A program made the position numbers and the translations under genes. Source: Candidatus Nitrososphaera gargensis Ga9.2 (GTDB lineage Archaea > Thermoproteota > Nitrososphaeria > Nitrososphaerales > Nitrososphaeraceae). From it: a DNA stretch of 64,000 bases. The stretch is from positions 310,001 through 374,000 of the forward strand of contig NC_018719.1 in NCBI RefSeq assembly GCF_000303155.1. Direction: 5' to 3'. The notes beneath the pieces were generated by a model. The model was not told the DNA's origin. It saw only the letters and a list, made by a program, of their open reading frames with translations, and made no database searches. This document shows, one piece after another, positions 5,942 to 45,288 of the stretch. Positions within the stretch are counted from its first letter, which is position 1. Every line of letters begins with the position of its first letter.

Positions 5942-6220
5942 ATGACAGGTATATTGTCAAATTTTGAGCTTGACTATTTGAGGGGCAAGGTGCAGCTGGA
6001 CGAAAAAGCTGCATACAACATGAGATACTTCCTTAAAAGGAAGCTTAAGGACCTAGCCTACCTAGAATTGCCATTGCTAATCGACTATGAGCGAAGGTCA
6101 AGTACTTCGGTAATGAAGAAAAACGAAAGCGTTATAATCTTGCGGGAGTCAGTATTTTGCCATGAGCGAAAAGAGAACAATGCCTGTATGCTTTACGCCA
6201 GAACAGCTCAAGATGGTTGA
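5942..6220 (+). CDS. short protein with integrase-N-like motif
   Basis: The 92-residue frame begins MTGILSNFELDYLRGKVQL and contains MRYFLKRKLKDL and LELPLL. The same spaced pattern occurs in the N-terminal fragment of the integrase at 35.8-36.2 kb (EIDWLLGKKQ, YRIKSDIKKKL, LELPLL) and in a decayed gene at 60.4-60.7 kb. The first 55 residues look genuine; the remainder, overlapping the downstream gene, is less certain. It may be a stand-alone copy of this domain or an integrase relic. Confidence 0.5.
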   Translation: MTGILSNFELDYLRGKVQLDEKAAYNMRYFLKRKLKDLAYLELPLLIDYERRSSTSVMKKNESVIILRESVFCHERKENNACMLYARTAQDG

Positions 6221-35763: not shown

Positions 35764-35837
35764 GCCCTAGTAGCTCAGCCTGGCAGAGCGAAGGTTTCGT
35801 AAACCTTAGGTCATGGGTCCGAATCCCATCTAGGGCT
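35764..35837 (+). tRNA. tRNA-Thr(CGT); integration site
   Basis: GCCCTAG pairs with CTAGGGC, D-arm GCTC...GAGC, anticodon arm AAGGT-TTCGTAA-ACCTT, T-arm ATGGG-TCCGAAT-CCCAT; discriminator T fits archaeal Thr. No intron. Its 3' half is repeated at 43167-43202 (direct) and 43111-43151 (inverted), and an integrase N-terminal fragment reads into it from the right, so it served as the chromosomal attachment site for the downstream element while staying intact. Confidence 0.95.
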
Positions 35838-36193
35838 TCTGTATTCTCTACTGTCTCATGAAGCGGTTTACTCAACCTTCCCTCTGCCAGCTTCGCTACC
35901 AGGGTGGGCTGCGGCTGAGGATTCGTCCTCAGATTCTGAGGATTAGCGCTCAGACCAAAGGTTGAACAATCATATCCTAACTTTGCAAGCAAAGGCAGCT
36001 CCAGATTCTGGAATGTCTGCAGCTTTTTCTTTATGTCGCTCTTTATCCGATATTCATAAGCCTTTGAAACCTGCTTCTTGCCAAGCAGCCAATCTATCTC
36101 TGTCCTTGTAAGAAAAGCTGGCGAGCTTTTTTTCATAAGCTCAAGAGCCTGTATAGTCGTATTTAGCTTTTGAGGAGGTAGATTGTGAGCCAC
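35800..36193 (-). CDS. integrase N-terminal fragment (intN)
   Basis: From ATG 36193 the frame reads MAHNLPPQKLNTTIQAL, TRTEIDWLLGKKQVSKAYEYR, IKSDIKKKLQTFQNLELPLLAKL, then a low-complexity stretch and EALDGIRTHDLRFTKP, which is the tRNA-Thr sequence read on the minus strand. This is the N-terminal domain of a thaumarchaeal tyrosine recombinase cut at the att site; the frame runs on by chance to 35723. The catalytic residues are in the distant C-terminal part. Possible start context and domain are intact. Confidence 0.75.
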
Positions 36194-36284
36194 TAAAGTT
36201 TATGGAGGGTTCAGCTTGTCCAAGCCGAGCTTTCTAAATAGTGTTCAAGGAAGCAAAAAGAAAGGATAAACCAAAGGATAATGA

Positions 36285-36374
36285 ATGACAGGTAAATCAC
36301 CACGAAAAACAAAAAAGAGAAAAAAGCTTCGAAATACCCGAGGCGAAATAAAGGAACGAAGGGGAAGTAAATAA
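36285..36374 (+). CDS. 29-residue highly basic peptide
   Basis: ATG 36285 gives MTGKSPRKTKKRKKLRNTRG followed by EIKERRGSK. The extreme Lys/Arg content could reflect a nucleic-acid-binding peptide of the element, divergent from intN, or only an A-rich spacer. There is no other support. Confidence 0.2.
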   Translation: MTGKSPRKTKKRKKLRNTRGEIKERRGSK

Positions 36375-36443
36375 CTCTAGTCCGGAATAGCGCTTGATAA
36401 GGCTACTAAATGTATATTATGGAACAACCAGCAATTACTATTA

Positions 36444-37183
36444 TTGAGTGAAAGGGAAGCGTCAAGACGCATCAGGTTTAGGAGCTTTTTACTCATAGTA
36501 GTCGTTCCCATCATTGTCTCAGTCATGTTAGTGCAGATCAATCCCTTTCTATTGTTGAAACCTTATGGATCGGCATACTATGCTGACGGTCTGCAACCGG
36601 CTCATGCACTTAATCAGGGCTACAGTGTCCCAATAGACATAATGATAGTCAATAGCCCGACACAAAAAGTGCCAACTCTGAGCCGGAATTTCGGATCATG
36701 GTTGACAATGCCAACAGGGTTTGGCATAAGGCCGGTGTGACATTCGTAGTGCGGTCACTTGATTATAAAGAAGTGCCCGATGAAGTACTAAACAGTCTTG
36801 ACAGCTTTAACAACACTGCGCTCAAGCAATTCGGCAAGGCTGTACTTGCTGATAGATTCGAAGATGGCATAATAGATGTTGTATTTCTAAGATCATTTTC
36901 CAATGGGATCGAAGATCTAGCGATAATTGAGGGAAATATTTCAATCGCTTTTCTGAGTGAATTGGAAAGTATCGATTTTATCTCATGGACACTTGCACAT
37001 GAACTTGGGCACACACTAGGACTGCTCGACGTGTTTGAGTTCGACAATCTGATGATAAGGGTAGATGGTACTTCTATGCTCAGATTTTCGTATAGGAATG
37101 CCTACCTACCATCGAACCTTACAGACCAGCAGATAGTAATTATCCGTAATACTATCGAAGCAAAGTCGTTTTCAATTTCATAG
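36444..37183 (+). pseudogene. membrane-anchored metzincin-like metallopeptidase, one frameshift
   Basis: The first part has a transmembrane helix at residues 13-33 (FLLIVVVPIIVSVMLV) and PIDIMIVNSP. The second, in another frame, continues MVDNANRVWHKAGVTFVVRSL and carries THELGHTLGLLDVF-type motif LAHELGHTLGLLD, the HExxHxxGxxD metal site of metzincins. The frames change between about 36660 and 36700, at an A5 run (acacaaaaagtg). All catalytic residues survive, so this is a recently broken gene or an assembly error. Outward-facing protease is likely. Confidence 0.7.
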
Positions 37184-37191
37184 AGGAGCGG

Positions 37192-37515
37192 GTGCTTGAA
37201 AGCTATATGTTCCCTGAAAAGCTAAAGAAGGCAATTCAACTACTGGGTGATGATGTAAACTGGAAGATAGTTGAATTGCTTGCAGACAGAGGCAAGGTTA
37301 CCTGGCAAGAACTTCTCGATGGATCAGGAGCAGTACACGCAAAAACGCTCAACTTCCAGCTGAAAGAACTGATTGGAGTTGGACTTGTAGATAGATACGA
37401 GGTTGGCCGTTCACTCGAAGGCAACACAGGGATTCTATCATTCGATCTTAGTCCGTGGGGAAAGGATATAGTTAGAGGCTTGCAGTCAGCATTGAATACC
37501 AAACAGAATGAATAG
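37192..37515 (+). CDS. ArsR-like winged-helix regulator
   Basis: The 107-residue protein begins (ATG 37207) MFPEKLKKAIQLLGDDVNWKI, continues VELLADRGKVTWQELLDGSG and KTLNFQLKELIGVGLVDRYEV with a wing, and ends SPWGKDIVRGLQSAL. This is a single winged helix with flanking helices, typical of archaeal element-encoded regulators. TTG 37192 would add five residues. It follows the peptidase relic by 8 bp, so they are likely one transcript. Confidence 0.7.
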   Translation: MLESYMFPEKLKKAIQLLGDDVNWKIVELLADRGKVTWQELLDGSGAVHAKTLNFQLKELIGVGLVDRYEVGRSLEGNTGILSFDLSPWGKDIVRGLQSALNTKQNE

Positions 37516-37858
37516 TTGTCCGAATTCCTAGAGACAGACTGCCTATTCTGTGCAAAAATCAGGTCAAACTAAATGGTTTAAAGGTAAACCAATTACAAAG
37601 CTTGTTCCCGCCGCACTTTTGCCAAAAAGCAAAAAGCTAGAATATTGCTCCTTTTGCCAAAACAAGCCTAATTCTTGGAGATCCTATTTTTCCATAATTT
37701 TGTTGAGTGACCGAGGATCAAATAATATCCGAAGCACTCAGACTGCTGGCCGTCAAGGCCACCGTGGTTTTGATACGCCAAGCAGTACCGTAGGAAAGAA
37801 GAAAGACAGTGCAGTGTAGGCTATCTCTAGCAACACTAGAGATAATGCTTCATTTGAT

Positions 37859-37881
37859 GGCCCTCTTACAATAAGAGGGCC
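37859..37881 (+). terminator. hairpin plus T-rich tract
   Basis: A perfect 10-bp stem (GGCCCTCTTA at 37859-37868, TAAGAGGGCC at 37872-37881, loop CAA) is followed by tcaacttttttcttttttt. A second hairpin, ATCTCTAG/CTAGAGAT, lies at 37823-37843. Archaeal termination mainly needs the T tract; the hairpin may protect the 3' end of the regulator transcript. Confidence 0.55.
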
Positions 37882-38110
37882 TCAACTTTTTTCTTTTTTT
37901 CACGGACTTATCAGGATGGAAACATTATTTGCTTATGCCCCTACCTGCGCTGACTGCCAATATGAATGGGCGTCTAGAGGCCTTTTATTCTTTCAAACCT
38001 GAGAGCTTGGTAGTTATGTAGAAGACTATTGTTACATGTAACAGAACGTACAATTTCCTTAGTACTGCGCGTTTGTTCCTTCGTTATTCTGTCAGAAAAT
38101 ACTAGGTTAG

Positions 38111-38158
38111 TTTTGAGCTTATTCATCCCATTTTTAATGGGAATGATTAAGCTCAAAA
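38111..38158. repeat. 48-bp imperfect palindrome
   Basis: The left arm TTTTGAGCTTATTCATCCCATT and right arm (reverse) TTTTGAGCTTAATCATTCCCATT differ only by two single-base indels. It can form a 22-23 bp hairpin or cruciform with almost no loop. No coding frame uses it. Candidate for an origin, resolution or regulatory structure. Confidence 0.6.
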
Positions 38159-38457
38159 CCATCAAACTGGTTTTAGGGGCGAACGAACAGACAGAAGGAC
38201 AAAAATGATAGTTTTTTGTCCGTTGTTTGTCTGTCCGGGAACCTAACTAACTATCAAAAGGTTAAGATCATGTTCAGTCGGTCAGTCAGTTAGTTAGGAT
38301 CTTACCCGCAAGACTGGTTTGACTGACAGCATGCCGAACCTTCTGAGACATTGAGGTTAGTGCAATCTGGTTGCTGGAAGTTTAAAGAACACTTTTACAA
38401 ACCTCAACTGATCATAAAAAACACCATTCAGACAGTAAAAATGATGGAAACCGGCTG

Positions 38458-38672
38458 CAACTTGGTGTAAACTGTTTGGAAACTTTTGGAAAACCTGCTG
38501 CAACTATCTATCAACCTGCGGAAAATAGATATAACCACAAACTGAACTTGCGAAAAACGCCATCCATAATTGAAATTTAGCTGCAACTCGTGGCAAACCT
38601 GTGGAAACTGAGTGTCAAAAGTTGGAAACTTGGCGGAAAACCACTGTCAACTGGTTGAAGGTTGCGCAAACC
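38458..38672. repeat. helically phased CAACY/AAACY repeat array
   Basis: A five-base core CAACT, CAACC, AAACT or AAACC recurs at 10-11 bp steps: 38458, 38469, 38480, 38491, 38501, 38512, a weaker middle part, then 38584, 38595, 38605, (38616 CAAAA), 38626, 38638, 38648 and 38668. The period equals one DNA turn, so all cores face one side of the helix. It ends right before the TATA-like box at 38672 and the two-gene GNAT unit, which suggests cooperative protein binding or bent DNA. Confidence 0.65.
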
Positions 38673-38713
38673 TTATAATAGTAGTTTCCAGAAACTATAT
38701 CTGGATAAAGGAA
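38672..38713 (+). promoter_or_regulatory. promoter of the GNAT two-gene unit
   Basis: CTTATAATAGTAG (from 38672) is a good archaeal TATA box about 35-40 bp upstream of ATG 38714. It follows directly on the phased repeat array, so any protein covering the array would sit next to the TBP/TFB site and could control it. Confidence 0.55.
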
Positions 38714-38863
38714 ATGTCCACTACTCCAGAGATGAAGGTTCCAGTATTGGAGGGCAAGGATGCTGAAGAGTTCCAGAAATATAATTCTAGAGTATTGACG
38801 CTGGAGGAAAAGGCATCACTTAAGAAGGCCCACGACTTTTACAAGAAACACTGCAGAGTCTAA
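38714..38863 (+). CDS. 49-residue partner of GNAT enzyme, putative antitoxin
   Basis: From ATG 38714 the frame reads MSTTPEMKVPVLEGKDAEEF, QKYNSRVLTLEEKASLKKA, HDFYKKHCRV. It is small, charged and helical after residue 15, with an extended start. The stop overlaps the start of the GNAT gene (TAATG), indicating translational coupling. Length and order fit an antitoxin upstream of its toxin, but it is not a ribbon-helix-helix protein of the TacA type. An upstream in-frame GTG at 38612 lies in the repeat array and is unlikely. Confidence 0.55.
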   Translation: MSTTPEMKVPVLEGKDAEEFQKYNSRVLTLEEKASLKKAHDFYKKHCRV

Positions 38864-39384
38864 TGAAGGTAGATCCTGAGAAATTATCCTTTGACCTATT
38901 CTCAACTAGTGATAACTTTTCTGCCCTTGATTTTACCGAAGATGACGGCACAGATCCATTAGGAATTGACGATTTTATCAAGAATAGAGTCCAAGACTAT
39001 CTGCCAAACAAGTTGGCAAGCATTTGGACAGTCAGATACGAGTCTGTAATCGTAGCATATTTTACAACTTCTATGTTTGCAATAGGATATAGGCAACTAT
39101 TTGACGATGAGCATGTAAAAGAAGTGCCAATTGTCTCATACCCCGCTGTATTGCTTGGAAGAATGGGTGTTCACAAAAAAGAAAGAGGCAGAGACATAGG
39201 TTACTGGATTTGCCAGTTCTGTATTGGTCTGGCGCAAGAGATAGGCAAGAGAATAGCCTGCAGGTACATTGTTTTGCAGACAGTCAAAGCCAAGTCAACA
39301 TATTATGAAAAGAAATGCATGTTCCACCAAACAAAGAGAGTGAATCTTGAAGGAAAAATTTGGATGTATAGAAGGTTATCATGA
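38863..39384 (+). CDS. GNAT acetyltransferase, TacT/AtaT-like
   Basis: The 173-residue protein has the GNAT order with VPIVSYPAVLLGRMGVHKKERGRDIG: the acetyl-CoA loop (ERGRDIG), then YWICQFCIGLAQEIGKRIACRYIVLQTV and STYYEKKCMFHQ. The combination LLGRMGV-x-GRxxG, IGxRxxxxx and YYEKxxF near the end is that of TacT-type toxins, which acetylate aminoacyl-tRNA. It is coupled to the small upstream gene and lies in an integrated element. Toxin role is inferred from sequence pattern and gene arrangement. Confidence 0.7.
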   Translation: MKVDPEKLSFDLFSTSDNFSALDFTEDDGTDPLGIDDFIKNRVQDYLPNKLASIWTVRYESVIVAYFTTSMFAIGYRQLFDDEHVKEVPIVSYPAVLLGRMGVHKKERGRDIGYWICQFCIGLAQEIGKRIACRYIVLQTVKAKSTYYEKKCMFHQTKRVNLEGKIWMYRRLS

Positions 39385-39492
39385 TAGCGTCGGAGTACTG
39401 GTTAGGAGCTAACTTGCAGCTTAACAAAAGCTGTTAAAAGCTGATATATTAGTTAGCGTAATGCATGAAATCTGTGAGGTAATAGCAACCCA

Positions 39493-40944
39493 ATGTTCTT
39501 TGCCTTCCCGCATACGCGTGCGCGCTTTCAGTACGCGCATATACGCTTCTTTGAGCGGGAATTTGGCCTAGAATACACCAAGTTTGAAAACAGAAGGATG
39601 CAGGAAGTGTATCAAGCCAAAACCCACAAGTTGTCCGAAGTATCTGGCTATGTTGTCTGGCTGCGCCGCAACAAGGCATTTCTGATCGTACCAACACTGA
39701 CAAGCCCTGAGCCATCTGTTTTTTGCGAAATACCGGATTGGATTAATTTAGAGATTCCGCCAGATAGAGCCTTTGTAGTAACAAAGGGCAAATGGGGGTA
39801 CAAGGTTGCTAGAGGCGTAGAGCCATCAGCTTCGCCCATTTTCACAGTTGACCACTACAAGGTAACGAGGCCTGATCTTGGGAGTATCAGGCCAGATAGT
39901 ACTTACCATGATTTTCGTGAAATATTGTTTGAGGGTTTAGCAGACGTGTATCCAGAAGTCCAAGACTTGGTAGCTCATAGCATTATAAGCTCGCCAAAAA
40001 CACTGGACAGGCTTGGCGGGCTGACTTTATCAGTCTACAACGAATCAAAGGCTACTTCAAGGGTACTATTAGCATACCTGAAGAGATTCTTGCCAAAAGA
40101 GTTCCTCCGCCAACAGGCTTTACCATCTTTCAGTAGAGCAGATAGGTCACAGCATAAGGCTTGATCCTTTCCCTTGGATGTACAAATCCTTTGATGCAGA
40201 CAGGGAACTATCAAAAGACGCATTGACACTCTTGTGCAGACCATCAGACTTTTCAGTACCAGACGAGGTCATGATCTCGCTAGAAAGTGACTATTCAAAG
40301 CCAAAATCGCTACGAGACCCGCCCGCCGCCATGGCCGATGTTCCCATAGTTGCTGCAAACACACTTGAAAAAGGCGAGCAGTGTATGATCCATCCCCTGA
40401 CGTTCCAAAATTCATAATAGCGACACATCTAGTTCCGGTTAGCCTGCCGGCATCGTTGTACGAATCTAGTCTTGGTTATCTGCAGGAGAAAATAACTGAA
40501 ATTTCATACAAGTATCCACAATTTAGAGCCGAGCTTGGAAGGGGTGGAATTTTAGACCTTGATATTCATGGAAAGCCATTGTCGCTGCTGCACCTTGGAC
40601 TATCCGATGGCAGGTCTAATTCGCAGGTTGAAGTAACAAGACAGACTATCGAGAATGCACTCTCAATCTACGACCGCAACATGGACAATACTCTAGCGAT
40701 ATGGCAAGATGCATTTCCGGGAGACGGTAAACTAGACTTTTCGGGAACTGCACCCGAGCAGCGTAGAATTGCCGGCTACATTTACCATCATGGCCCTGCC
40801 ACACGCGAACAGATGTACGAGGCTCTCAAGAATGAAATGTCTCGGGACTCGTTTTACAGGTGGTGGAAGGACTTGTATGATCATGGCGGCATATACGAGA
40901 AAGTACCTGGAATATTTGACATAGTTCCACATTATAGGGAATGA
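39493..40944 (+). pseudogene. large element protein with C-terminal winged helix, two frameshifts
   Basis: Three coding-like blocks follow one another: 39493-about 40130 (frame 1; FFAFPHTRARFQYAHIRFF, IISSPKTLDRLGGLTLS), about 40110-40380 (frame 2; VEQIGHSIRLDPFPWMYKS) and about 40380-40944 (frame 1; DPSPDVPKFIIATHLVPVS, ending in RRIAGYIYHHGPATREQMY and FYRWWKDLYDHGGIYEKVPG). Together they make about 480 residues. The last 70 residues form a winged helix. The two frame changes compensate each other. No family is recognised; replication or maintenance protein is possible from its place beside the repeat region. Confidence 0.6.
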
Positions 40945-40984
40945 ACGGTTGCACAAGCATTCGTGATTTTGTAAAAAAAGAAGG

Positions 40985-41156
40985 GGTTGCCTAAGTTGCG
41001 CTACTGTTGCATGAACGTCTTGCATTCACAAGTGCGGCCGTTAGGCAAAAGTCTGCTGCATCTACCATTCTGAGGATGCTCCATCCTCATATGGTAGCAG
41101 CTTGTATTGTTGCATATGTCGTATGGAGACATTGCAACAAAGATAATACGGCAACC
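40985..41156. repeat. nested inverted-repeat (fold-back) segment
   Basis: Outer arms GGTTGCC (40985-40991) and GGCAACC (41150-41156) enclose further complementary pieces (TGTTGCA and its partner TTGCAAC) and a central hairpin: GCTG-CA-T-CTACCAT...GAGGATG, loop CTC, CATCCTC..ATGGTAG-CAGC (41055-41101). No gene is seen in 40945-41318. It could be a MITE-like insertion or a structured RNA between convergent genes. Confidence 0.45.
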
Positions 41157-41318
41157 TGCTTAAAGGAACTAATTGGCCTAACAAAATTTAGTCCGATAGT
41201 ATATTCGACATTTGTCTACTTATATAAAAGAACTAATTTTTTACTCCCTTAGGGGGAGAAGGTAATATTCAGAGCAATTCAGTATCTAGATCAGTGTAAT
41301 GAAAAAATGCCGTTTGTA

Positions 41319-42218
41319 CTAGATAAACTTGATTGCGCGCCCATCCACAGGCTGAGCCAATATTTCTATATCTACCACACAAGGTTCAGCATTTTTTGCA
41401 GTGATTACAATTTGAGCTTTGGTTGGAGCCAATATTCTGTTCCTGTGAGGAGGCTGCTGCCAGCCATCCTCTGTGGGAGCAATAACTCTCGGCAGCGCAT
41501 CCGGGGATTGATAATGCTTTTTTACTTCGGTTCGAGCTTTAATGGAATCCTCATATACCTCAGTTTGTTTGGTGTAACTGTTTGTGCCACTTGTTGGCAG
41601 CTTTGATACCTCTGTGCGAATATCATTAACTATTTGAGCTTGATCACCCTTGAGTATTGCACATAGGTCAACATATTCTACCGAGTTTGCGTTTATCGTC
41701 ATTGTGTGGCCGGAGGTTGGGCTAATCCAAGCCACCTTTTCCTCATTCCCGTCGATTCTTAGGACAGCTTTACAATTCTCTGCGGCGTTCCTTCCGTCGT
41801 TCCTAACTATTATTCTATTTGCAACATATTCAACGAGATACTTTGTCTTAATGGAAGGAATTGCACCCAATAACGGGCTGCTGACACTGTAGACCTCGCT
41901 ATGAAACGCCCTTAGAACTGGGGATTTGTCCTTGGCAATCCTTAGAATTGGCCTTCTATAATGATCAAGAAGTCTATTGGCAAAATAAAGCGCAAATCCC
42001 GCAACTAGACCTCCTATGACAAACTGAAGTGATAATTGAATCCACTGAACTTGCATGCTGGCTACACTAGCTTCTGTATTCGGCAGATTCTGATTTGAAG
42101 GAATGCTTGTACCAGTTTCGTTCACATTTTCTTGTGCATAAATGTGCTTCCCTGGTTGGTTTACAAGTAAAAAGAATGCGATAATAGTAAAAGCGTTCAA
42201 AAGGGCGTTAGCATACAT
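41319..42218 (-). CDS. element-encoded membrane protein
   Basis: The 299-residue protein has an N-terminal signal or helix (ALLNAFTIIAFFLLVNQ), a polar stretch with NET and NTEAS, a transmembrane helix near residues 62-85 (LSLQFVIGGLVAGFALYFANRLL) and a cytoplasmic or external beta-rich domain (IKTKYLVEYVANRIIVRNDGRNAAENCKAVLRI) resembling general receptor-like folds. No family is recognised. It is the last intact gene before the integrase remnant. Confidence 0.65.
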   Translation of the reverse strand: MYANALLNAFTIIAFFLLVNQPGKHIYAQENVNETGTSIPSNQNLPNTEASVASMQVQWIQLSLQFVIGGLVAGFALYFANRLLDHYRRPILRIAKDKSPVLRAFHSEVYSVSSPLLGAIPSIKTKYLVEYVANRIIVRNDGRNAAENCKAVLRIDGNEEKVAWISPTSGHTMTINANSVEYVDLCAILKGDQAQIVNDIRTEVSKLPTSGTNSYTKQTEVYEDSIKARTEVKKHYQSPDALPRVIAPTEDGWQQPPHRNRILAPTKAQIVITAKNAEPCVVDIEILAQPVDGRAIKFI

Positions 42219-43110
42219 ATATTGTGGCTTATCGCGAGACCTCTAAAAGATTATCGCATATGCTGAATCTTTTGCCATGTTAGGGAATAGCTAGCTCGTG
42301 ATGCAGTGATGCTATTATCCTTCGAATTTTTTTTGCAGTTGTCCTTAAAGTCTGGCCTGAAGTAGTGTCTTGCAAAAACCGACTTTGGGATTCTGCCTTG
42401 TAACAAATCGATGAATTCTGTCTCTATCCTTTTCGTTCTTAAGTAAGTTGCAAAGATGCTCCTGCAGTTTTTCATCTTCATTTCCATATCCCTTTTCGTG
42501 ATATAGAGTCGTAGAGCATTTTACCCACAATTCTTGCAGCTTCTGGCAAGTTCAATAACCTCTTGGTTTATGATACTGATATACGCTTTCTTTGTCCTCC
42601 TAATGAAAATCTCAGGATACTTGTAATGTTCAAGCGTCATCCAGTCTTTTTTAAGATAGTTATCAAGGTCAGTCTGAATAAGGTTAATACTCTGGCAGGC
42701 TTCGTCGGGTCTCGGACCAACAAGGGTGGCATATATGAGAATGTTGCCATACTCATTTGGTATCTTTGAAAAAGTAGCCTTCAGCCATTGCATCATTGCT
42801 GAGTAGTTATTTCCGTTGTTCTCCATCATTGAAATGAATACATCCATGTCACTACCTACAGTCCACTTCAAATCATATCGTTGTTTGATAGCTTTCCAAG
42901 TGTCATAGCATCCGTAGTATTTGGATAGGTTCGAGAGAGCTCTCATGGCATGCTGTCTATTCTTAGGAGTTAAAGTTAAAGCTCAGATGCGTTCTGTGTC
43001 TGCAATATGTGGCCGTATCTCCGGGCAAAATTAATCAGCTGACCAGATGTTTTCTTTCTCCTCTCTTTCAATATCCAACTTTCAAACCCTTTGAAAGAAG
43101 GAGTACCGGC

Positions 43111-43151
43111 ACTAGATGGGATTCGGATCCATAACCTAAGGTTTACGAAAC
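43111..43151 (-). repeat. inverted copy of the tRNA-Thr 3' half beside attR
   Basis: On the minus strand these 41 bases match tRNA-Thr positions from the anticodon stem (GGTTTCGTAAACC) to CATCTAG with two mismatches. With the direct copy at 43167-43196 they form a 30-bp inverted repeat with three mismatches and a 26-base spacer. Both copies share GGATCC where the tRNA has GGGTCC, so they derive from the element rather than from the chromosome. Confidence 0.75.
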
Positions 43152-43166
43152 CGAACGAGAACCCAA

Positions 43167-43202
43167 CCCTTAGCTCATGGATCCGAATCCCATCTAGGGC
43201 TT
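43167..43202 (+). repeat. attR: direct copy of the tRNA-Thr 3' end
   Basis: CCTTAG-TCATGG-TCCGAATCCC-ATCTAGGGCTT repeats the 3' end of tRNA-Thr (35802-35837) with two internal substitutions. It marks the right border of the element and starts the intC frame on the minus strand. It lacks the 5' half of a tRNA and cannot be a functional tRNA gene. Confidence 0.85.
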
Positions 43203-43319
43203 TTGCGTTTTTTATAATGTTAGAAAAAATACTGCCAAAATGTGTCGTCAAAATATAGTAGAATGTTTGTTTCTTGAATAACTTATATGTGATCTTCGGG
43301 AGAACTATCCCGAATTATT

Positions 43320-44105
43320 TTGATAGAGCAAAATTGTCATGCAGCATGCATAGTTGACTTAGACGGTTCAGGGTTTTCTGCAATTTATTCCAGGATCCAC
43401 CAGTATCTCCTCAAAGGCTATGCCGTGGCATATGTTGCAGAGGATAACACAGCGACCGCAATACAAAACATTAAAAATTCCGGAGTTGACGTTGACCACT
43501 TCCTACCAACTGGCGCTCTTCAGGTAATTGACAGGGACTTGTACTACAATCCAAACAAGGAACTTGAGCCACAAAAATTACTTGATCAGTTTTCCAAGAT
43601 AGTAACTCAAGTTGACTTCCAAAAGTTCAAGGGGATGCTAGGAATTGGTTCAGCTGGTCCTGCCTTTTTCCAAAAAGGAAAACTTGAACCACTCTTGGAA
43701 TATGAACACAAGATTGGCAAGAGATTTAAGGTGCCGGTAGAGATCATCTGCTGCTATCGGTCTAATGACATCAGGCAACTAGAATTCAGCCATCTTGTAT
43801 CTGTCATTACTTCTCATGCATATGTGATTACCTCAGAAGGGACAGAGCATAAGGGACTGAACTCTGACGCAATTATTTCATTTATCGCTGCTGGAATTAA
43901 CAAATCATTGTGTGCAAACATATCTGACATTATATTAAAAACCTTGGAAATTGCATATGGCATAAAGAAAGAGCGAATAATATCACAACCGAGAATTTTT
44001 AAAAATGCCTTGGAAAAAGCACTTGGCATCACTTCTTCCAGAATTGTCCTAGCTGAAATAGAGAATGAAATCCGGTGCGCTCTGCTGGGCGACAATAAAA
44101 CGTAG
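43320..44105 (+). CDS. MEDS-domain (DcmR-type sensory) protein
   Basis: The 261-residue protein begins IEQNCHAACIVDLDGSGFSAIYSRIHQYLLKGYAVAYVAEDN-like (split here as residues 3-21 and on) and contains GVDVDHFLPTGALQVID, matching the MEDS sensory fold, a RecA/KaiC-like domain found in methanogens, methylotrophs and thaumarchaea. The C-terminal third is helical and may mediate dimerisation. It lies 115 bp outside attR, upstream of a second MEDS gene. Signal unknown. Confidence 0.7.
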   Translation: MIEQNCHAACIVDLDGSGFSAIYSRIHQYLLKGYAVAYVAEDNTATAIQNIKNSGVDVDHFLPTGALQVIDRDLYYNPNKELEPQKLLDQFSKIVTQVDFQKFKGMLGIGSAGPAFFQKGKLEPLLEYEHKIGKRFKVPVEIICCYRSNDIRQLEFSHLVSVITSHAYVITSEGTEHKGLNSDAIISFIAAGINKSLCANISDIILKTLEIAYGIKKERIISQPRIFKNALEKALGITSSRIVLAEIENEIRCALLGDNKT

Positions 44106-44116
44106 AGGTGTTTGGC

Positions 44117-44474
44117 ATGGGTATTATTAGCAATCAAGTTGAAGACTTCGACTTGCTTGGCCCAAACAAGCACATTGCGATGTTTTTACGAGGAGCCAGA
44201 GCGGGCAAGGGAGATAGAGTTTCGATTCTTGCGTAATGGTCTCTTTAGGGGAGAGCATTGCATCTACATATTGCATGAAGGTGACGAGATCGACATTATA
44301 GAAAATGAGATAGCTGACAATGGGATTGATGTCATTCATTTCAAGAAGAAGGGTCTCCTCCACATAGTAAAAGTCAATGATCTCTTGACCCGCCCAGAGG
44401 TATACATGGACGCTTTTCAGAATTTGCTAAATGACATTGCAAACAAGTTCAAGCCAATAGTAAAAGAGCTGTAG
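44117..44474 (+). pseudogene. second MEDS-domain protein, frameshifted
   Basis: ATG 44117 gives MGIISNQVEDFDLLGPNKHIAMF, then the frame changes in a T5 run at about 44176; the next frame continues FYEEPERAREIEFRFLRNGL, EHCIYILHEGDEIDI and KKGLLHIVKVNDLL. Removing one T joins them into a MEDS domain of about 119 residues. It directly follows the longer MEDS gene and probably arose by duplication or acts with it. Confidence 0.7.
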
Positions 44475-44614
44475 GAACTGCTGTCGCCAACGTAACGATA
44501 GGAAAGGATAGGATGGGTGTAGAATTGCAACTTGAAAAGCATTTTCATAGTATATTTGCCAGCTTTCATGGGTCGTGGATGTGCCATTATTACCTTGCGA
44601 ATATTGATCATTAT

Positions 44615-44890
44615 CTATCTTTTCAGCTGGCCGGGCTTGCAGATGTGGTAACCCTTTCCAATCCTCACGTTGCACCCCGGGCAGAGTTTTGGAGGGGCAA
44701 GCTTTGGAGGTCTCTCAAAGTTGCTTCTCATTGTCTCATTGTACTCCTTGTTGAGCGCATTCAGCTCCGCCTGCAGCCTAGGTATGTCACGCTTGGCCTT
44801 CCTGTTGTGCATCCTGAGCTGGATCTTGTGTATCTTGTGGTTCAGGTCCCGCAGCCTCTTTTTTCTAATATGGCGATAACGATCTACCAA
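44615..44890 (-). CDS. coiled-coil protein with C-terminal zinc knuckle
   Basis: The 91-residue protein is a basic coiled coil (HIRKKRLRDLNHKIHKIQLR, DIPRLQAELNALNKEYNETM) followed by CPGCNVRIGKGYHICKPG, a Cys-Cys-His-Cys knuckle. Such proteins may bind RNA or act as adaptors. It stands alone on the minus strand between the MEDS genes and a small plus-strand gene. No named family. Confidence 0.65.
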   Translation of the reverse strand: MVDRYRHIRKKRLRDLNHKIHKIQLRMHNRKAKRDIPRLQAELNALNKEYNETMRSNFERPPKLAPPKLCPGCNVRIGKGYHICKPGQLKR

Positions 44891-45082
44891 AGGCCGGCCA
44901 TGATCCTGCTAGTAACCATATTAAGTATTCGCGAAAACCTGTTAATGTCACACTGCAGCTGTGTCGTCTTTCTGGTTTTGTAGCTCTTTTGCAGACAAAA
45001 ATTACATAACAGTATTCTATCGACAATAGCACCAAAGGTGCAGCGTTCCTTATATTCATCAAATACAACAATGGCATGAAAC

Positions 45083-45265
45083 GTGACCTACAAAATCACT
45101 GTCAAGATCAACGAAAAGAATCTTTCAACTGAAGCAATAAAACAGGCAGTCAACTACATCAGTGGGGCGCTGGATAGCATGCAAATCGCCCACACGATCG
45201 AGTGCCACAAGGACAAGATCGTGCTGACCAGAATGAGCAAGCCACCAACAATAGTGGAGCACTGA
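45083..45265 (+). CDS. 60-residue conserved-looking protein
   Basis: GTG 45083 starts TYKITVKINEKNLSTEAIKQ, AVNYISGALDSMQIAHTIEC, HKDKIVLTRMSKPP: a beta-alpha-beta pattern of a small soluble domain. It is 23 bp from the convergent surface-protein gene. No family recognised. Confidence 0.5.
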   Translation: MTYKITVKINEKNLSTEAIKQAVNYISGALDSMQIAHTIECHKDKIVLTRMSKPPTIVEH

Positions 45266-45288
45266 AAGAAAAAGGGTGGAAAAAAATA

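Follow-up and report, generated by a model that had tools for sequence, protein, structure and literature searches.

Suicidal tyrosine integrases of the SSV type (SSV1, SSV2 and pTN3) carry attP inside the int gene, which is split into IntN and IntC segments at a tRNA gene, and their att covers the anticodon arm together with one tRNA half. SSV1 Int cuts at the borders of the anticodon loop, and an inverted repeat lies on either side of this loop (PMC8371274); in the model of Badel et al. specificity switches by int(N)/int(C) exchange, with new attP sites formed through recombination of oppositely oriented elements (PMC8371274). The Thaumarchaeota integrated elements described in a survey, which belong to the same archaeal group as the DNA studied here, are tRNA-targeted and have short direct att repeats, and one of them, NitEve-E3, has an SSV1-like split integrase (PMC6563490). 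How integrases whose own gene is destroyed by integration evolve new targets is an open question.

The same gene organization and the same type of att are present in a 64,000-nucleotide stretch of Candidatus Nitrososphaera gargensis Ga9.2 (NC_018719.1, positions 310,001 to 374,000), which we refer to as the window and number from its first base; the genome of this archaeon, of the ammonia-oxidising type, is a single contig of 2.83 Mb. A complete tRNA-Thr(CGT) gene predicted by ARAGORN at 35764..35837 (plus strand) is the integration target, restored at the IntN-side border of an integrated element of about 7.3 kb (35838..43164) that is defined by a direct tRNA repeat at both ends, empty-site comparison and cargo scans. 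IntN, the N-terminal part of a split SSV-type integrase that reads antisense into the tRNA, is an open reading frame at 35838..36193 (minus strand), and IntC, the C-terminal catalytic part (LVGPRPDEA ... ARHY), lies at the far repeat (42281..43110, minus strand; identified by Pfam Phage_integr_3 and by its homologues), confirming that the gene is split at att. The flank upstream of the element, up to an unoccupied tRNA-Thr gene, is common to the window and two relatives (G420 and G425) whose downstream sequence matches at about window 44596-45273, and 35838-43164 is therefore inserted DNA, possibly with more to its right. The sequence at 43203-44595 has no counterpart in these two empty-site genomes, so it too may have been inserted; the first open reading frame to the right of the element (43320-44105) encodes a MEDS sensory-domain protein (E 4.5e-20). 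The element's cargo is cryptic, with one acetyltransferase-like reading frame at 38863-39384. A second, weak IntN-like match (E 1.6e-4) at 5948-6115 (plus strand) is possibly the end of another element.

The IntC gene is broken by a frameshift near 42976-42990 and by one TAA stop near 42521, both missed in an earlier note on this DNA; the open frame upstream of the break runs from 43251 to 42976 and the whole IntC region from 43251 to 42281, both on the minus strand. Its last part matches Phage_integr_3 (E 3.7e-6), its relatives match both this family and PHROG 5127 integrase, and the integrase profile gives weak matches (E about 1e-3) to the SSV integrase structures 4dks, 3vcf and 3uxu. The window integrase and its relatives are thus akin in sequence to fuselloviral integrases, with phage records yielding only weak fusellovirus matches and a search for circular forms finding no integrase relative in IMG/VR with the profile or among plasmids. 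The window element does not have an intact, active integrase, and since it is a decayed member of the group these lesions count against activity and not against kinship. What the region contains is thus best explained as the divided att of a decayed element of the SSV (suicidal) integrase type that had inserted into tRNA-Thr(CGT).

Two opposed copies of the tRNA 3' half lie at the IntC border, as the earlier note had proposed. The direct copy, which is the chromosomal 3' remnant, spans 43165..43201 (plus strand; tRNA positions 38-74, 92% identical to the tRNA), and not 43167-43202 as first noted. The inverted unit is 44 nt long rather than 41, at 43109..43152 (minus strand; tRNA positions 30-73, 41/44 or 93% identical, E 1.3e-12), contains the anticodon stem-loop as well as the 3' half, and abuts the IntC core. 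The two are separated by 12 nt (43153-43164) where 16 had been reported, and form an inverted repeat of 36 nt with four mismatches (89%) or of 30 nt with two, not three. Each copy contains the 21-mer ATGGATCCGAATCCCATCTAG without a mismatch, against a chance expectation of zero, and folding of the inverted-repeat stretch as single-stranded DNA gives z = -8.8. Both copies are translated in the one open frame (43251-42976) and both have GGATCC where the chromosomal tRNA has GGGTCC, as had been stated. The two units share an A at position 53, a G in the intact tRNA, suggesting that sequence was exchanged between them or that one was copied from the other. An origin of the inverted copy by hairpin snap-back of the direct copy was considered and is ruled out, as a complete anticodon stem, arranged as in the tRNA, is present in the inverted copy and missing from the direct one.

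There is also a third tRNA-derived piece, overlooked in the earlier note, at the end of the IntN frame (35865..35904, minus strand). It derives from the 5' half of the tRNA (positions 2-42), is decayed and in opposed orientation, lies 27 nt beyond the tRNA gene and matches in 34 of 41 alignment columns with one gap (BLAST 83%, E 2e-6). Its Smith-Waterman score of 25.5 is reached by none of 300 and none of 2000 shuffles, compared with 16 for the best other 160-nt tile of the window, and tRNA-Thr ranks first among 42 tRNAs. With this IntN-side piece included, the reconstructed attP reads, in the direction of int, IntN, a decayed sense 5' half, the used antisense 3' half, a sense anticodon arm with 3' half, and IntC. 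Taken together, the two minus-strand pieces add up to an almost entire tRNA that points the other way from the used unit and is split at the anticodon arm, and the used att unit sits nested inside it. With three tRNA-derived units in both orientations the window attP departs from the usual single-unit description of such sites, which is not a strict definition.

Comparison with 92 distinct related integrase loci, whose att classes were assigned from a library of 42 tRNAs, shows that opposed copies recur; many of these loci are on short metagenome contigs, and homologous loci are not independent of one another. The named relatives are recorded as Nitrososphaera, Nitrosocosmicus and other Nitrososphaeraceae, and homologous IntN ends are present in 32 of 70 family genomes. 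Taking the best inverted repeat within 300 nt upstream of IntC, six of 92 att zones score at least 14 compared with none of 92 control stretches, and no direct-orientation repeat has a comparable score. L045, L038, the window and L037 rank strongest; of the remaining two, L039 is not tRNA and L102 (minus) is a T-arm pair between two divergent integrases. In searches of each locus with the tRNA copy that it carries, p<0.01 in mononucleotide shuffles was obtained for 7 of 40 antisense loci and for 5 of 19 sense loci, although one passing sense case (L017) is false, its opposed pair deriving from two different tRNAs. Some of the weaker opposed-copy cases match T-arms of other loci equally well, and the 12-16 nt T-arm matches in L107, L047, L044, L057, L123, L098 and L102 could reflect chance, binding sites or local copying. 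Most of the 92 loci have no outer units and only a few show them all; the exact inverted pair is found only in the window genome among the 70.

Two apparent compound sites, L102 (G403:C155) and L123 (G326:C1:1404700-1409000), were set aside. In each of them two divergent IntC genes flank a single tRNA-Glu half that is antisense to one IntC and sense to the other, and they probably arose when elements of opposite orientation integrated in tandem into one tRNA gene. At L039/L232 (G403:C173) about 450 nt separate IntN from IntC, and an antisense tRNA-Gln att lies in this interval; the int gene region is apparently unsplit here and still contains its attP. A palindromic motif, TTACYAAAWNYAGTAA in the form searched, recurs next to att, with 8 of the 92 zones containing it compared with none of 100 integrase bodies, and may be an arm-type binding site; it lies in the IntN-IntC linkers of L011, L038, L039, L045, L058, L092, L102 and L136.

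Neither of the two refuting accounts of the inverted copy that the earlier note put forward holds. In L009 (53% identical, the closest integrase with the same target) the att unit covers tRNA positions 29-74, within one base of the limits of the window's inverted copy, and its anticodon arm joins the IntC core directly; it lacks the IntC-side copy while keeping the IntN-side 5' piece (score 22.5). The inverted copy is therefore not fixed protein code of this integrase family, and most of the 92 loci have no clear one. Nor is it an assembly artefact, given the single-contig genome, the analogous layouts at other loci, and the presence in another genome, at L055 (the nearest integrase, 59%), of a decayed homologue: an IntC-side piece covering tRNA positions 45-70 that matches that genome's own tRNA version at 22 of 26 positions.

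Nested layouts are also found with other tRNAs. Opposed tRNA-Thr copies recur in L048 of the same genus, at a tRNA-Thr(GGT) gene, where a sense 5' unit, an antisense 3' unit, an antisense anticodon arm and a sense 3' unit are followed by IntC, and each of the four units is matched by none of 500 shuffles. L037 and L038, both at tRNA-Glu, are mirror images of the window: the IntN end carries a 3' half that is antisense and decayed (17-18 of 21-22 nt, 0/300 shuffles), followed by the used sense 3' half, an antisense anticodon arm with 5' half, and IntC. Their integrases are sisters with 58% identity, and each inverted copy fits the tRNA of its own host far better than that of the other (28.5 versus 12, and 32.5 versus 15.5). 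The tRNA-Glu(TTC) genes of L037 and L052 have an insertion in the D region, a probable intron, and as the L037 inverted copy includes the last bases of this insertion it was copied from the gene and not from the mature tRNA. In L045 (tRNA 3-45) and L038 (2-46) the limits of the inverted copies correspond to those of the 1-43 units seen in sense-5' integrases, and L045 and L136 both have an IntC-side opposed unit. The half-and-side rule is obeyed in all of the discriminating cases (the window, L009, L048, L037, L038 and L045), representing about four independent ones.

The orientation of att relative to int also varies across the family. Among 81 loci with assigned orientations (49 antisense and 32 sense), the integrase tree requires at least 12 changes compared with a mean of 25 when labels are shuffled, indicating that orientation is inherited but changes often. 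The clearest example is the antisense integrase L103, which sits within a clade of sense integrases that are 75-81% identical and all at tRNA-Arg(TCG), L014 and L096 among them at 80-81%. Similarly, L029 (sense) and L026 (antisense) are 65% identical and share tRNA-Arg(CCT), and L029 retains a 13-nt relic of an antisense anticodon arm. These data suggest that the orientation of insertion into a tRNA gene has been reversed again and again in elements of this kind. The earlier note had offered two rounds of integration, an att inversion or a site used in both orientations; of these, use of both orientations over evolutionary time is supported by the changes on the tree, by the opposed sisters and by the nested units in several elements, while present-day inversion by the window element is unlikely because its IntC gene is broken.

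We lean, with moderate confidence, towards interpreting the opposed copies as fossils left by suicidal integrases whose att orientation turned over, a process that would originate at the anticodon stem-loop with its near symmetry. The outer pieces would be the previous att of the integrase, left behind after it switched orientation relative to the tRNA. The crossover region would be the anticodon loop with its surrounding inverted repeat, and since this loop departs from symmetry chiefly at the three bases of the anticodon, att sites may occasionally recombine antiparallel at a low rate. An attP containing a whole tRNA and integrating in reverse would leave, in order, the reverse complement of the 3' half, the anticodon arm, the 3' half and IntC, which is the arrangement seen at the right border of the window; the left border would gain a 3' half and so restore the tRNA, and such a half is present. 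The new pair of direct repeats would then become the working att, the old units would decay, and excision through the new repeats would give a nested attP, with the shared A53 suggesting a later exchange between the two arms. What is observed are the tRNA pieces with their boundaries, their nesting, its recurrence at other loci and the changes of orientation on the tree; the reversed recombination, the restoration and the order of decay are inferred. The identities of the outer units fit later decay, at 83% and 93% in the window and about 80-85% in L136 and L055. Against this interpretation, few loci have all of the outer units, the two window 3' units share G53A, and L009 has the IntN-side piece but no IntC-side one. 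In L045 the inverted copy is still 100% identical over 43 nt, as would be expected of a functional or recently copied unit more than of a fossil.

It is unlikely, in our judgement, that the opposed units instead work, or once worked, simultaneously as a bidirectional attP, with the element integrating either way and the tRNA restored each time, the enzyme on this reading being unable to tell apart the directions of the near-symmetric anticodon arm. The strong inverted copies are complete or nearly complete units from anticodon arm to tRNA terminus that would restore a tRNA from the IntC side; the anticodon arm is intact in the window unit with its 41 of 44 matches, identity is 43/43 in L045 and 28/28 over the match core in L038, the copies follow the host's own tRNA, and near-identical integrases occur in opposite orientations on one tRNA. 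However, outer copies are often decayed, as in L136, L055 and the IntN-side pieces of the window, L009, L037 and L038, the A at conserved G53 in the window unit would yield a damaged tRNA, and we find zero loci integrated through the second unit. That some Nitrososphaeraceae suicidal integrases carry such a working site, with two opposed att units per tRNA, is accordingly doubtful. The shared G53A also fits a quasi-palindrome in which one arm was copied from, or corrected against, the other, and a template switch during replication through tRNA hairpins, copying a nearby stretch backwards with no attachment role, would make inverted rather than direct local copies, as observed; the window stretch does form a strong hairpin. 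We regard this as quite improbable. The copy limits coincide with att units and not with random points, the half-and-side rule is kept in all of the discriminating cases, and the window inverted copy includes tRNA positions 30-37, missing from its neighbour, and has the two strands of the anticodon stem arranged as in the tRNA; in L038 the inverted copy repeats a 5' half that is absent from the circular attP. The remaining suggestion, that inverted T-arm or anticodon-arm pieces are extra integrase-binding sites making attP symmetric, draws on several antisense-type integrases in which inverted T-arm pieces of 12-16 nt occur at comparable distances and the P' arm is not lengthened. It is very improbable, with such pieces missing from most relatives, even close ones (L097, L059 and L109 compared with L098, L102 and L044), their distances from the anticodon centre variable, and the full-length 5' halves left unexplained.

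Under the preferred interpretation, turnover of att orientation, nested opposed units would constitute a readable fossil record of att turnover on a single tRNA, with a simple cause indicated in the symmetry of the anticodon arm, and antiparallel recombination by suicidal integrases is a testable prediction. A practical caution is that some of the att site goes unseen when it is mapped by direct repeats only. We found no description of opposed att copies in suicidal integrases in the open-licence literature searched, and the available sections of the Thaumarchaeota survey (PMC6563490) make no mention of opposed or nested copies such as those seen here. Whereas the SSV-type attP has been described with one tRNA-derived unit, these loci have up to four, in both orientations and nested. 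The model of Badel et al. likewise invokes exchange between two elements, while here it is the orientation that changes, on the same tRNA, with relics of the old att surrounding the new.
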